Below are positions 10,083 through 33,941 of a stretch of 33,941 bases of DNA, piece after piece. How positions within the stretch are numbered: the stretch's first letter is position 1; each line of letters opens with the position of its first letter. This stretch comes from a virus: IMG/VR virus record IMGVR_UViG_3300033153_005656, positions 1 to 33,941 of that record. One strand, given 5' to 3'. The notes below the pieces were generated by a model, which saw only the letters and a program-made list of their open reading frames with translations, had not been told where the DNA came from and did no database searches. Position numbers and translations under genes: made by a program.

Positions 10083-10643
10083 CTAATTTATTTTTAATAC
10101 TGATACAATTTTTCTATTATGAAATGATCCGAAAAAAGCCCTTATACCTTTTATTGATATTTGTTTATAATAATGAATCTCATTAATTGTCATAAATCCT
10201 GATCGTTTTAATAATTTATCATAACGATATCTGTCAAACTCATGAAAATGACATTTATTAAATGTTATCCATGTTGGTTTTAATGGTGTTCCGAGTATTA
10301 AATAACCGTCAGGTTTTAAATATTTCTTAATCTCTAGTAAAGTAAACAAAGGGTTAAATTGATGCTCAATTACATTATTATAATGAATGAAATCATATTT
10401 CTTTTTAGGAGAATTAAATATTAAATCTAAATCTCCTAAAGTAGAATCAATCTCAATCCCGTAAGTACTTTCTAATATTTCAGTTAAAATATTACGACTT
10501 CCAATATCTAAAACATCACCTTTTAATCCGCCTATACTCATTATAATTTCAATTGTCTTATCAAAATTAATATGGGCAATTGGATTGTTTTTTTGATTAT
10601 CCTTTGTTATTTCATCACTTACCCAGAAGTCTGTATCTTTCAT
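10083..10643 (-). CDS. Class I SAM-dependent methyltransferase
   Basis: 186 residues with the Methyltransf_11-type Rossmann layout: motif I GDVLDIGSRN (about residues 42-51), acidic end of strand 2 GIEID, then YDFIHYNNVIEHQFNP as motif IV region, and LKPDGYLILGTP as the post-motif strand. The IEH signature is typical of small-molecule, lipid or sugar methyltransferases and not of DNA methylases (no NPPY/DPPY). Starts 11 bases after the large terminase. Substrate unknown; it could modify a host surface molecule or a virion protein (inference). Confidence 0.75.
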   Translation of the reverse strand: MKDTDFWVSDEITKDNQKNNPIAHINFDKTIEIIMSIGGLKGDVLDIGSRNILTEILESTYGIEIDSTLGDLDLIFNSPKKKYDFIHYNNVIEHQFNPLFTLLEIKKYLKPDGYLILGTPLKPTWITFNKCHFHEFDRYRYDKLLKRSGFMTINEIHYYKQISIKGIRAFFGSFHNRKIVSVLKIN

Positions 10644-10654
10644 GTCTTTAAGTT

Positions 10655-12640
10655 TTATAATGGTTTAATTGATCTTCTGTAAAATCTTGCGCCGTAACGA
10701 ACAGCATCAATGCAATTGTGAACTAAGATTCCATTTGCAAAATATTCGTGTTGTTCTTCTATCATTAAATCATAAACCATTCGCCTTTCTTCTTTTTCGC
10801 AATGCACGTGCTCTACAATTTTTGTGACAATATTTTGATTTCCCTGAATGCCTTGTTTTATATTCATTTCCGCATTCTTGACAAATAAGCGTTTTATATT
10901 CCCTGCCAATCCATGTTTCCCTTCCTTGCTCTCTGTGCCATTCAATCCCTTCAGGTGATCCGTGCCATTCTTTTGCAGCCTCTCTGCCTTTCCTGTTAAA
11001 TTCATTTGCCCATTCTGGATTGTCTCTAAATCTCTTTTTGCCATGGTCTTTTTGATGTTCTGATTTTTCTTTAAGTTGGAGATTTTCAATATCATTATTC
11101 CATGTGTTACCGTCTTTATGATGTATCTGAAATCCTTTTGGAATACTTTTATTATAAAATTTCCAAACCTCTGTATGCATTCTTTTAATTCCTCTTGAAA
11201 AATACCTTTCTTTTGGATATAGCTTATATGCTTTCCCGTTAAATTCTTGGTAAGGTAAACCATTTGACCCGATTTTAATTTTGAAATTTGCGTCCATCCT
11301 TCATCAGTTTTTAATAAATGTTCTTTTGTACATGACAAAGATAATGAAAAAGTATCGAATTGTATCAAGTATTTATTTATTAGTTTCAATCCGTTACTAT
11401 GTCTCTTTAAAACCCTCTTATATCCTTTTGATGTTAATACAAAATCATTTTTAAAAACATTACTTATATTTTTCAATCCTGTAATTGTATTTATTTTAGT
11501 GTCAGTAACAAAACAATGATTGTTTTTATCTTCAGGTATATCCAAATACTCCCCTGTTATTTTATTCTGCACTCGCTTATACTTTTCAAACTCGTCAATT
11601 GCATTTTTTGAATCTTCGTGTATAAAGATACTAAATTCCTGCAACCTTTCAATACCGTCAATAATTGAACCCTCACCCTTTGTTGCTCCAAGTGCGTTAA
11701 TCCCTGCCATTTGTAATTCAAAGATTTTGTCTTTACGTGCTGAGTCAGCAATGACAATCGGGTTACCTAAACCCTGAATATATTTAATAAGCTTAGAGTT
11801 TAATATTTGCGGTTGGTAAATATGTTCTTTGATGTAAAGCCTGTTATTTTCACCGTCGAAATTAAGCTCACTCAATGTTGTTGGATCAGAGCCACCCCAA
11901 TCAATAACATAAATCTTATAAAGGTCACATTGCGGAAGTATACTGTAAGTAATCCAATTTTGAAAGATCACACCTTCGAGCTGTCCTTTTAATCCAAGTC
12001 CATAAACTTGCCACCAGTTCCACCAATACCCTCGCTTACCTGCTTTGTCCTCAGCGTCGGCTTTTGTCTTAGCAATCTGTAAATCTCTTAATTGTCCTTC
12101 AGTAAGATTTTGAATGTTATCAAAGAATGTTGAATCAATTATGATACAGTCATCACGTTCTTCGAATTTTTCAGTATCAAACCAAAACTCTTCAGAAGGA
12201 TTCCAATCAAGAAAAATAGTTTCTGTTGTTCGCTGCATTAATTGATGGGCAATTGAAAAAGGAAGTTTGTTTGCTTCGTTAATGAACAAAATATCTCTTG
12301 CAGCTCCAAGGGCTTTTCCTGGTTTATCAAATCCAATGAACTCAAGTATTGAATTGTTAATCGTATAGATGTATGGATTCTTTATTCTTACATCGTCAGG
12401 ACTGATTCCCTCTTCAGTTAAGATATTATCAAAATCCCTTATTGCACCACCAACTAAGTGAGGCAATGAAAACGAAACTGTTGATAATACTCTCTTTTTC
12501 TTAGAGTTTTTCATTATCAATAAATCAAGCTGCTTTAATGAAAATGTTTTACTTGACCTAGTTCCGCCTTTATTTGCAATTATCCGATAACCCTGGTTAT
12601 AGGCTTCGAGAGTTTTTGAAAATACTGAGGTTGTTATCAT
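10655..12640 (-). CDS. terL: Large terminase subunit precursor with intein
   Basis: 661 codons; removing a 267-residue intein leaves 394 residues, a normal size. The packaging motor ATPase has Walker A NKGGTRSSKT (residues 23-32) and a Walker B-like DILFINEAN (116-124). The RNase H-like nuclease has Asp247 in YVIDWGGSDP, Asp299 in IVIADSARKD and the third acidic residue in NNH^CIDAVRYG, where the intein splits the motif. Active terminase therefore requires protein splicing. N-extein is 1-375, C-extein 643-661. The ATG at 12640 overlaps the TGA of the 46-aa membrane peptide. An HNH endonuclease is encoded in the -1 frame inside the intein part. Confidence 0.93.
   Translation of the reverse strand: MITTSVFSKTLEAYNQGYRIIANKGGTRSSKTFSLKQLDLLIMKNSKKKRVLSTVSFSLPHLVGGAIRDFDNILTEEGISPDDVRIKNPYIYTINNSILEFIGFDKPGKALGAARDILFINEANKLPFSIAHQLMQRTTETIFLDWNPSEEFWFDTEKFEERDDCIIIDSTFFDNIQNLTEGQLRDLQIAKTKADAEDKAGKRGYWWNWWQVYGLGLKGQLEGVIFQNWITYSILPQCDLYKIYVIDWGGSDPTTLSELNFDGENNRLYIKEHIYQPQILNSKLIKYIQGLGNPIVIADSARKDKIFELQMAGINALGATKGEGSIIDGIERLQEFSIFIHEDSKNAIDEFEKYKRVQNKITGEYLDIPEDKNNHCFVTDTKINTITGLKNISNVFKNDFVLTSKGYKRVLKRHSNGLKLINKYLIQFDTFSLSLSCTKEHLLKTDEGWTQISKLKSGQMVYLTKNLTGKHISYIQKKGIFQEELKECIQRFGNFIIKVFQKDFRYIIKTVTHGIMILKISNLKKNQNIKKTMAKRDLETIQNGQMNLTGKAERLQKNGTDHLKGLNGTESKEGKHGLAGNIKRLFVKNAEMNIKQGIQGNQNIVTKIVEHVHCEKEERRMVYDLMIEEQHEYFANGILVHNCIDAVRYGARFYRRSIKPL
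10715..11515 (-). other. Intein in the large terminase (residues 376-642)
   Basis: The insert starts with Cys376 (CFVTDTKINTITGLKNI, block A), has block B with TKEH (Thr438, His441) and GWTQISKLKSGQMVYL, and ends with block F/G VYDLMIEEQHEYFANGILVH plus Asn642, followed by Cys643 as the +1 nucleophile. These are all the residues of a class 1 splicing intein. Between B and F, about 155 residues in this frame show no DOD or other domain and are Lys/Asn/Gln-rich; the endonuclease is in another frame. Insertion is at the conserved NH-x-DA-x-RY nuclease motif of the host protein. Confidence 0.9.
10770..11297 (-). CDS. HNH homing endonuclease nested out of frame inside the terminase intein
   Basis: 175 residues from ATG 11297, in the -1 frame relative to terL. 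The HNH_3-type core runs RMHTEVWKFYNK, then IHHKDGNTWNNDIENLQL and HQKDH (His41, His59-His60, Asn67-Asn68, His81). The C-terminus has a zinc-ribbon-like pair CQECG and CHKNC (Cys139, 142, 157, 161) and a basic tail. The frame is closed by TGA two codons before the ATG, and its stop lies in the block F codons, so it is an independent nested gene and not part of the spliced reading. It probably cuts intein-free terL alleles. How it is initiated is unclear; no ribosome site is evident. Confidence 0.85.
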   Translation of the reverse strand: MDANFKIKIGSNGLPYQEFNGKAYKLYPKERYFSRGIKRMHTEVWKFYNKSIPKGFQIHHKDGNTWNNDIENLQLKEKSEHQKDHGKKRFRDNPEWANEFNRKGREAAKEWHGSPEGIEWHREQGRETWIGREYKTLICQECGNEYKTRHSGKSKYCHKNCRARALRKRRKANGL

Positions 12641-13359: not shown

Positions 13360-13716
13360 TTAGAACGGCAAATCATCAACGCCATTAGCTACTTCATTAC
13401 TTCCTTTCGGCTCAGACTCTCCGTGTCCTGTTGACCCGCTTACTCTTGCATTTCCTAAAATCGGGAGAGCTTTCTTTTGCTCGTCGCTCATCTTTGCCAG
13501 TTCATCTTTTTTAAAAGATTGTTTCAACAAGTGAGTGTCTTTGTATTGTTTATCGCTTTTGTCTTCATAATCAAAGCCAACAATATTCAGATAAATTCCT
13601 TTTTCGCCTTCAATAAGATTATTTTCAGCAATAGGAATTACTAAAGCTTTGTTTCCTTTCGGAGTTGTCATGAGTGCGTGACTCAATTGACGCAAGTTTA
13701 AATTTAATGTGATCAT
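13360..13716 (-). CDS. SSB-like single-stranded DNA-binding protein
   Basis: 118 residues. The N-terminal 70 residues are strand-rich (MITLNLNLRQLSHALM, KALVIPIAENN, KGIYLNIVGFDYED), consistent with a small OB fold. A flexible Gly/Ser/Glu linker leads to VDDLPF, the acidic tip by which SSB proteins recruit replication and recombination partners. Placed among replication genes next to a VRR-NUC nuclease. The OB core is not a clear match to bacterial SSB, so this is inferred from the tip, size and context. Confidence 0.55.
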   Translation of the reverse strand: MITLNLNLRQLSHALMTTPKGNKALVIPIAENNLIEGEKGIYLNIVGFDYEDKSDKQYKDTHLLKQSFKKDELAKMSDEQKKALPILGNARVSGSTGHGESEPKGSNEVANGVDDLPF

Positions 13717-32374: not shown

Positions 32375-32575
32375 CTATGCCGTTATGTCTCTGAATACCG
32401 TCCTTTCACTAACCGCAAAAATCTCACATAAAGCCCCGACAACATCAGAAGTATTACGGCAATTCTCTAAACCTGTCGCTAAATCTCGAAGCTGTGAGGC
32501 TGCTTTCTTCTGATCTTTTAAAGCTAGTTGACAAAATTCAGAACGCTGTTTTATATATTTATCTCTTTTAGCCAT
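32375..32575 (-). CDS. Small HTH-like protein after the tape measure
   Basis: 66 residues, helical: RSEFCQLALKDQKKAASQLR, DVVGALCEIFAVSERTVFRD. The C-terminal AVSERTVFRDI resembles the recognition helix of DeoR-type HTH regulators (xSxRTVxRDI). It overlaps the tape-measure stop by one base and lies before a terminator. Could be a late regulator or a tail chaperone; only the C-terminal motif supports DNA binding. Confidence 0.5.
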   Translation of the reverse strand: MAKRDKYIKQRSEFCQLALKDQKKAASQLRDLATGLENCRNTSDVVGALCEIFAVSERTVFRDITA

Positions 32576-33941
32576 TAGATAACCCCTGCTTCTTTAACTG
32601 AGTTAAACGCTGTGAATCCTGCTTCAATTGATTCTACGCCTACAATAATAGGAGTCCTTTGTATTGCTTCATTAACTTGTTGATCAATGTTCGCAGTGTC
32701 AACCTCGCCACCTTCCTGTAAATGAGTCGAGCTTTTTCCAGTAAATGAACGCCCGCCAAAACTTTCATTAATCATACTTAAAGCAGCGATTTCAGCAGTT
32801 GCGTCTTTTTTCATCACAAACATAGCCTCTCCTTTTTCAGCTTCAAACATACTACCGTCTTGACCAAAAAATTTCGTTCCGCCTTGAGCGTGTGAGCTTC
32901 CGCCGATTATTCCGCCTTTTGCAAATTTCGGTGTCGGTTGTGATGCTATTGCAGCGATCTGAACACCTCCCAAAACTCCGACTAAAGCAGCCATAATAAT
33001 TCCGAGTATTGGATTTCCTGAGTTTGCCAAAGCACTTACAACACCCAAAGCAGTGGCAATTGTAGCGTCAATTAATGCAGCGTTTTTATCATCTTTAGCC
33101 TGTTTTGTTTTTAACTCTGCCTGTTTCCTTGCAAATTTAACATTAATTGCGTCCTGTGCTTCCTTGTTATCACCTACAAGAGCAAGCTCGTGGGCTTTTT
33201 GAATTTCTAAATCAGCAAGCTCCTGTTCGTGTCCTGCTGTAATAAGTGCCGTTAATCCAGAAGCAGCTTGAGCAATAGCCATAAATTTATCTTTAGAGCT
33301 TTCAAGCTCTTTGAAGTCTATAGTTGAAATCCTTGAAAAAGCATCACTAATAATTGAAACTCTTTTATCAGCCATTCCATTAGTCGCTGCAATAATTCGT
33401 TGCATACTTTCAAAAGCACTCTGTAAATTTTCTTCTCTGTGAGCGTCAATCTGTGCATTATATTCAGCGTCAATTTCTAAAAGCCTCGCTTTATGTTCGG
33501 CTTCTAAAAGTTCTTTTTCTTCATACAATAAACCATCCTGCTCTAATTTTAATTCAAGTTCCTCCTCTGCTTGCTCAATTAACAATTCTTTTCTTGCTTC
33601 AAAAGTCTCAGCTTCTGCTATCAGTCTATCATTTTCAAGCTTTGCCATTTGAGCAATTGCGTCTGCTCTGCGTTCAAGTTTTTCAGCTTCGATTTGTCTC
33701 TCTTTTTCGGCTGCAATTTCGGCTGCAATTTCTTGTTTTGTTATTTCGGCTGTCAATTCTCTTTGTGCTGAAACTAGTTGACCTGTGATTCTTACTCTTT
33801 TTAATGCGTTTTCTTTTTGTACATTAAACAAATCAGCTTCAAGTTGAGCCTGTTCATTTAGATCTTCTTTTGTTGAATCGCTTAAAGCATTCTGAGCCTT
33901 TTTTAAAGCGAGTTTTTCCTGAGCAATCTTAAGATTTGTAT
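32575..33941 (-). CDS. Tail tape measure protein, C-terminal part
   Basis: The last part of the 827-residue tape measure protein that begins at 1231. Residues 411 to the end (from 33828 on) give coiled-coil heptads (ITKQEIAAEIAAEKERQIEA), a hydrophobic stretch (ATIATALGVVSALAN, ILGIIMAALVGVLGGVQIAA) and a Gly-rich end (FAKGGIIGGSSHAQGGTKFF) that is typical of tape-measure C-termini, including GGxxxGxxHAxGGxxF. The stop at 32575 overlaps the start of the small HTH-like gene. Frame continuity with 1-1231 was checked by codon phase across the repeated ends. Confidence 0.88.
   Translation of the reverse strand, partial: TNLKIAQEKLALKKAQNALSDSTKEDLNEQAQLEADLFNVQKENALKRVRITGQLVSAQRELTAEITKQEIAAEIAAEKERQIEAEKLERRADAIAQMAKLENDRLIAEAETFEARKELLIEQAEEELELKLEQDGLLYEEKELLEAEHKARLLEIDAEYNAQIDAHREENLQSAFESMQRIIAATNGMADKRVSIISDAFSRISTIDFKELESSKDKFMAIAQAASGLTALITAGHEQELADLEIQKAHELALVGDNKEAQDAINVKFARKQAELKTKQAKDDKNAALIDATIATALGVVSALANSGNPILGIIMAALVGVLGGVQIAAIASQPTPKFAKGGIIGGSSHAQGGTKFFGQDGSMFEAEKGEAMFVMKKDATAEIAALSMINESFGGRSFTGKSSTHLQEGGEVDTANIDQQVNEAIQRTPIIVGVESIEAGFTAFNSVKEAGVI
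33828..33941. repeat. Terminal direct repeat, copy 2 (circle closure)
   Basis: Exact copy of bases 1-114 in the same orientation, inside the tape-measure gene; superimposing the two copies restores one uninterrupted coding frame. Confidence 0.95.

Follow-up and report, generated by a model that had tools for sequence, protein, structure and literature searches.

Introduction

Inteins that carry a nuclease are described as a single protein with an in-frame endonuclease domain. In the canonical bifunctional inteins, such as PI-SceI and TliVMA, the HINT splicing domain comprises blocks A, B, F and G, the endonuclease occupies the usual HEN site between blocks B and F, and vacant alleles occur. 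The ShiLan domain (PMC11855218; Applejack gp54/gp55, PMC12613952) is a sporadically distributed zinc-finger HNH endonuclease hidden out of frame in the open frame of a mycobacteriophage methylase; according to its authors it has no splicing domain and is thought to be retained in the protein (PMC11855218). Fractured genes with split phage inteins (gp41-1; Dassa et al. 2009, cited in PMC6801210) have an independent endonuclease gene between IntN and IntC, and the nuclease of the fractured gene of Dassa et al. is reported to be of a different, Vsr-like family. The homing endonucleases of group I introns (I-HmuI type) are encoded independently of the frame of the splicing machinery. Free-standing HNH genes lie beside terL in PAE1, SN1, Shemara, EauM-23 and BP10.

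Here we describe a terL gene from a virus contig of IMG/VR. The window, meaning the whole stretch of DNA that was analysed, is a single metagenomic contig of 33,941 bases. The terL element resembles the canonical bifunctional inteins in its HINT blocks, in the location of the endonuclease and in having vacant alleles, but its nuclease is a gene of its own in the −1 frame, the filler between its splicing halves is predicted to be unstructured, and the nuclease would not be part of the spliced intein. The canonical criterion, an endonuclease in the frame of the splicing domain, was not met in any unbroken locus. With ShiLan it shares an out-of-frame zinc-finger HNH within an open host frame and a sporadic distribution; unlike ShiLan, the HNH is flanked by complete intein splicing blocks, and SD sites are present in many nested loci, whereas no RBS is given in that paper. 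Fractured genes are similar in that gp41-1 is the closest solved splicing domain and that relatives L163, L164 and L182 have the same gene order, but the window and most relatives have one continuous ORF overlapping the nuclease, which is here of the HNH_3 type. The free-standing genes beside terL belong to the same HNH and zinc-ribbon family and share its neighbourhood, but lie outside any intein and have stops in the −1 frame at the expected rate. The likeness to group I introns consists of a weak fold match and the independent endonuclease ORF; the difference is that splicing is here inferred to occur at the protein level, with terL open throughout. A group I or II intron, or another RNA, was ruled out by the lack of any Rfam match and by the uninterrupted terL frame.

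Results

The intein and its nested gene

The positions of all features are collected in Table 1. The host gene was identified as terL by Pfam Terminase_3C and PHROG TerL matches, and the intein probably interrupts the nuclease-domain motif NH..DA.RY of phage TerL. All class 1 motifs are present, namely Cys1, block B TKEH (T63/H66), H266-N267 and the +1 Cys, which was also found in 92/93 invaded loci of our first set; block F/G reads YDLMIEEQHEYFANGILVHN. Pfam Intein_splicing matched the intein with an E of 1.8e-7 and 31.6 bits, slightly below its curated cut-off of 35.8, and TIGR01443 intein_Cterm exceeded its cut-off. In the AlphaFold model the HINT fold is predicted to be intact, with pLDDT above 90 at residues 1-90 and 231-267 and an unstructured filler between the two halves. 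The best PDB match of this model was the gp41-1 intein (6qaz, TMt 0.80), and gp41-1 was also the top match by sequence. By its motifs and fold the element is likely to be a class 1-type intein; splicing activity is inferred.

Table 1. Features of the terL locus (positions in the window)
Feature	Position	Strand	Description
terL precursor gene	10655..12640	(-)	One open frame of 661 codons: N-extein, intein and C-extein
TerL N-extein	11516..12640	(-)	375 codons, C-terminal end ...PEDKNNH
Intein	10715..11515	(-)	267 codons, Cys1 to Asn267 (HN^C), equal to terL Cys376 to Asn642
Intein N-terminal splicing half	11246..11515	(-)	Residues 1-90, blocks A and B; AlphaFold pLDDT 91-97
Tandem TGA stops	11301..11306	(-)	Two, just 5' of the HNH ATG; shut the HNH frame
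HNH ATG	11295..11297	(-)	Last base of intein codon Gly73 plus TG of Trp74 (TGG)
Nested HNH endonuclease gene	10770..11297	(-)	175 codons plus stop, frame −1 to terL
Intein-frame filler	10838..11236	(-)	Residues 94-226; open, unconstrained; pLDDT 27-62
HNH_3 catalytic domain	11052..11183	(-)	HNH residues 39-82; HH59-60, N68, N72 and H81 invariant in 40 homologues
HNH four-Cys zinc ribbon	10815..10883	(-)	C139, C142, C157 and C161, invariant
Intein C-terminal splicing half	10715..10831	(-)	Residues 229-267, blocks F and G; pLDDT 94-96
HNH TGA stop	10770..10772	(-)	Last base of Tyr248 (TAT) plus GA of Asp249 (GAT), in conserved block F VYD
TerL C-extein	10658..10714	(-)	19 codons, start C-IDAVRY; terL stop codon 10655-10657

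The filler is the HNH coding sequence as read in the intein frame. The HNH ORF matched Pfam HNH_3 (3.8e-13) and phrog_15471 HNH (1.3e-24), and both sequence features of a homing endonuclease, a motif with conserved catalytic residues and a DNA-binding zinc ribbon, are present. Its structure was modelled with a mean pLDDT of 89.7; the top Foldseek match of the model was I-HmuI (1u3e), which was weak (E 0.012), and a PDB sequence search with the HNH profile gave no match.

The HNH gene runs from the end of the block B region to block F. Counted from the Cys codon, its ATG lies at nt 218 in most distinct loci of the Bacteroidota-type clade. This clade conserves both Trp74, which is invariant in the alignment, and the VYD of block F. 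The nested gene thus begins and ends in conserved intein codons, and the codons of the splicing domain therefore furnish its punctuation. A first-pass annotation, made from the sequence alone, had claimed a terL frame open for 661 codons with Cys376, block B, block F/G and HN^C; a complete 175-residue HNH protein with four zinc-ribbon Cys in the −1 frame; and an ATG in block B, a stop in block F and a TGA upstream. The first of these claims held on ORF and motif reading and the second on the Pfam and PHROG matches; the third also held, with two tandem TGA found.

Some other features of the window were recorded. Minus-strand ORFs with matches to tape-measure proteins lie at 1-1231 and 32575-33941, with one ORF open at each contig end; the contig may therefore be a complete, circularly permuted genome cut within the tape measure gene. 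Directly downstream of terL is a class I methyltransferase gene (10083-10643), and at 13360-13716 is a gene for a 118-aa protein of a PHROG of unknown function, whose C-terminal DDLPF is an SSB-like acidic tail.

The nested arrangement recurs

Homologues were collected from IMG/VR, isolate phages and bacterial MAGs in scans with profiles of terL, the HNH and the intein. These gave 156 loci at which an unbroken intein carries this HNH, corresponding to 129 distinct inteins (the distinct count is given since some contigs were retrieved repeatedly), with the HNH in frame −1 in every case. An HNH in frame with terL, which the first-pass annotation had named as a finding that would refute its reading, was seen at 0/156 unbroken loci (129 distinct). 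The nested gene is present in the isolate phages Tetrasphaera phage TJE1, Rhodobacteraceae phage LS06 and Acinetobacter phage Highwayman, whose genome annotations show terL alone at the site and miss the nuclease gene, as well as in MAG contigs of Bacteroides, Patescibacteria and Acidobacteria. A scan for the intein C-terminus, which is independent of the HNH, gave 73 further loci, some of them on contigs already seen: 69 were nested, 2 were partial with the HNH in −1, and 2 were mini-inteins without HNH. Where the exteins were divergent, a terminase family match was obtained in 8/10 tested, and nearly all insertions lie within or adjoin the NH..DA.RY motif. The nested HNH intein, which had been put forward as a possible new intein architecture, is thus a widespread family rather than a one-off oddity. 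Members of the same HNH family are also encoded between split-intein halves and as free-standing genes beside terL, which refines the earlier description.

The insertion point in the TerL NH..DA.RY motif was observed to shift by 0, 1 or about 4 residues between lineages (cis-open loci, e.g. L110, L140, L078). In L199 (509-2713) a LAGLIDADG domain is also present in the N-extein region, and a second, in-frame endonuclease element is possible in that gene.

An out-of-frame HNH could be mimicked by two compensating indels from sequencing or assembly, and the window is a single metagenomic contig. However, the −1 relation recurs in independent assemblies and isolate phage genomes, which excludes sequencing error as its source; no in-frame homologue was found; and the HNH gene starts and stops at conserved intein codons. 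We regard this explanation as all but eliminated.

Constraint on the two frames

When the window HNH gene was shuffled synonymously, the intein frame stayed open in just 1.8% of shuffles, with 2.26 stops expected. Over 70 distinct loci the shuffles gave a mean of 3.2 intein-frame stops and a median chance of remaining open of 0.004 (0.4%), yet the frame was open in 69/70, the exception being L164, a split form. Nested HNH genes had 0 intein-frame stops vs 2.5 expected. As a control, free-standing HNH genes (n=17) had 6.5 stops vs 6.7 by shuffling, and those between split halves (n=11) had 8.5 vs 7.6. The filler is therefore kept open only where the intein has to be translated across it, and an intein frame open by chance was ruled out by the shuffles together with this control.

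The codon-level comparison of both frames that had been proposed as a check was made on 64 close pairs, which are not independent of one another. Ahead of the overlap, dN/dS in the intein frame was 0.23. Over the first 18 HNH codons it was 0.36 in the intein frame and 1.25 in the HNH frame; in the filler these values were reversed to 1.30 and 0.16, and over the last 18 intein codons dN/dS was 0.04. The column-variability profile agreed with this pattern. Constraint thus passes from intein to HNH and back to intein along the overlap, as shown by these non-independent pairs. The claim of 528 dual-coding bases held in part: both frames are read over the whole length, but constraint on both at once is absent from most of it. 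True two-frame constraint across all 528 bases was unsupported: the first 15-18 HNH codons are under intein-frame constraint, the middle is under HNH-frame constraint only, and real dual-frame constraint is limited to the edges of the overlap, between which the intein frame is open filler.

The choice of frame can be accounted for by the same data. The third frame (+1) holds about 20-22 stops, vs about 2.5-7 that need to be purged in −1; −1 is thus the sole frame that is cheap to hold open, which offers a simple explanation for its constancy.

Inferred expression of the nuclease

The first-pass annotation had inferred that the HNH is made by internal initiation. In the 61 distinct loci with start positions other than that of the window's type, the SD energy at the HNH start averaged −4.4 kcal/mol vs −2.4 at the gene's other ATGs (p=9e-5). 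Near-perfect SDs are found inside the intein code of L190, L216, L198, L185 and LS06 (for example acggaggataggtcATG in L190 and tttggaggtgtcagtATG in L216). In window-type loci (n=60) the HNH start has no SD and an A-rich leader. Such a leader is compatible with initiation in Bacteroidota; in the window it is also dictated by the intein codons. The inference of internal initiation is thus supported for SD-using hosts and remains indirect for the SD-less type of the window.

Alternatively, ribosomes on the terL mRNA could reach the HNH frame by −1 programmed ribosomal frameshifting, in which case the product would be a fusion of TerL-N/IntN to HNH and no free HNH would be made. In its favour, the HNH frame is −1 throughout, and in-register slippery XXXYYYZ heptamers occur in 19/70 loci, including GGGAAAG 58 nt 3' of the ATG in the window. 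However, the other 51/70 loci have no heptamer, heptamer position is not conserved, and in most loci HNH-frame stops lie a few codons 5' of the positionally conserved ATG. SD signals also precede the HNH start in many loci, and the constancy of −1 is explained more simply by the purging of stops described above. Frameshifting is therefore very unlikely, and internal initiation, though inferred, is the better reading.

Vacant alleles and inferred mobility

TerL relatives 66-78% identical to that of the window have vacant sites, DKNNH^(I/A)ID, and a similar vacant site is seen at 62% identity. The four nearest vacant relatives have an uninterrupted DKNNH^xID...RYG. None of the vacant relatives listed has Cys as the next residue after the site; the presence of this Cys in invaded but not vacant copies fits a +1 Cys that arrives together with the element. 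HNH identity exceeded TerL identity in 94% of 8,911 pairs, and in 169 pairs TerL was <35% and HNH >60% identical. We infer that the HNH homes the intein into vacant terL, the cleavage of the vacant allele being likewise an inference.

A different possibility is that the HNH has a packaging role beside the terminase, with nesting a by-product and no homing. Free-standing relatives do adjoin terL or portal genes, and some phages are known to use HNH proteins as partners in packaging (Kala et al. 2014, as cited in PMC12613952). Against this, the terL relatives at 62-78% identity have neither intein nor HNH, so the HNH is dispensable; HNH similarity outruns TerL similarity; the position of the HNH, within an intein that occupies a vacant-site motif, is classic for homing; and mini-inteins without HNH are present at this site. 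A packaging role alone is thus unlikely, and homing remains the preferred reading.

Split, mini and free-standing relatives

IntN, HNH and IntC are separate, mostly overlapping ORFs in L163, L164, L182 (Vibrio phage 1.245.O), L222, L242 and L252. Three of these, L163 (48-1552), L164 (2311-4254) and L182 (658-4389), from Clostridia MAGs and Vibrio phage 1.245.O, are split TerL inteins in which an HNH of the same family lies between IntN and IntC and overlaps them, and may be naturally split inteins. In L181 (Brochothrix phage BL3, 709-2607), gp2/gp3 resemble a terL intein that has become split and retains only the decayed, zinc-ribbon end of its HNH, in the −1 frame. The window intein is one continuous ORF, unlike L163, L164, L181 and L182. 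At the same TerL site, L301 (3171-3569) and L318 (3165-3569) are mini-inteins of 133 and 135 aa without HNH; the filler is absent, suggesting that it is dispensable, and the two may be useful as small inteins. Free-standing HNH homologues beside terL were found in L124 as well as in the five named above, which indicates that the HNH can be autonomous.

By manual count, about 5/9 independent split lineages show exactly the nested frames, with the HNH at −1 to both halves (chance 1/9). This proportion, taken with the gp41-1 match, suggests interconversion of nested and split forms. The HNH tree was a quick one with poor deep support and an unresolved root, and does not decide the direction between nested, free and split forms. 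The nested state could have been derived by loss of stops from split inteins with an intervening HNH, the fractured-gene layout: split relatives (the six loci above and others) exist, and the HNH tree has no resolved root. The nested frames held by about 5/9 split lineages fit instead the addition of stops to a nested frame, and unbroken nested loci far outnumber split ones. A split-first origin remains possible.

Discussion

Our main reading, to which we assign a probability of about 0.8, is that the element is a mobile class 1-type intein whose homing endonuclease is a separate gene nested in the −1 frame. Its basis is computational: neither frame is broken, more than a hundred inteins share the arrangement, purifying selection acts on the HNH frame across the filler, where the intein frame is free of stops, and vacant alleles exist. 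There are no expression, splicing or cleavage data, and splicing, initiation and cleavage are inferred.

In this reading the TerL precursor would be translated through the intein, and the HINT halves would fold with the unstructured filler between them and remove the insert by splicing. A minority of ribosomes would start at the internal ATG, or HNH synthesis would be coupled to terL translation, giving free HNH without extein. The free HNH would cut intein-free terL alleles of co-infecting phages, and repair would then copy the whole intein, including the +1 Cys, into the cut terL. Production of the nuclease would thereby be separate from splicing, and the uncoupling of homing from splicing that had been proposed earlier fits this scheme, although it too is inferred. 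Stops arising in the filler would give a split intein with the HNH between its halves, a state that is seen in relatives.

An intein with an out-of-frame endonuclease was not found in the open-access literature that we searched, where ShiLan (PMC11855218) is the nearest precedent. For overlapping frames, that paper cites Gorbalenya 1998, 'Non-canonical inteins', and the Gosselin et al. 2025 preprint (10.1101/2025.01.02.630785), entitled 'Actinobacteriophage Inteins... Non-Canonical Architecture'. Part of the present finding may therefore be already described, with this preprint as the main risk to novelty.

A bolder reading, against which we lean slightly, is that these elements form a large undescribed class of phage inteins in which a homing nuclease is overprinted at a fixed −1 and punctuated by the splicing codons (xW -> ATG, YD -> TGA), and which yields gp41-type split inteins through stops in the filler.

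The nested HNH intein is likely to be an overlooked design of mobile element, and annotation pipelines overlook such nested nuclease genes. The family is found in phages of several bacterial phyla, where a separate nuclease gene is obtained from the same DNA. This allows the amount of nuclease to be adjusted separately from splicing, and places the nuclease gene under constraint from the splicing domain. Even if the nuclease is lost, the sequence is not necessarily released, since the filler has to remain an open frame. The nested form may also be a route to naturally split inteins, and with continuous, split and free-standing states linked in one family, the origin of split inteins becomes directly testable.
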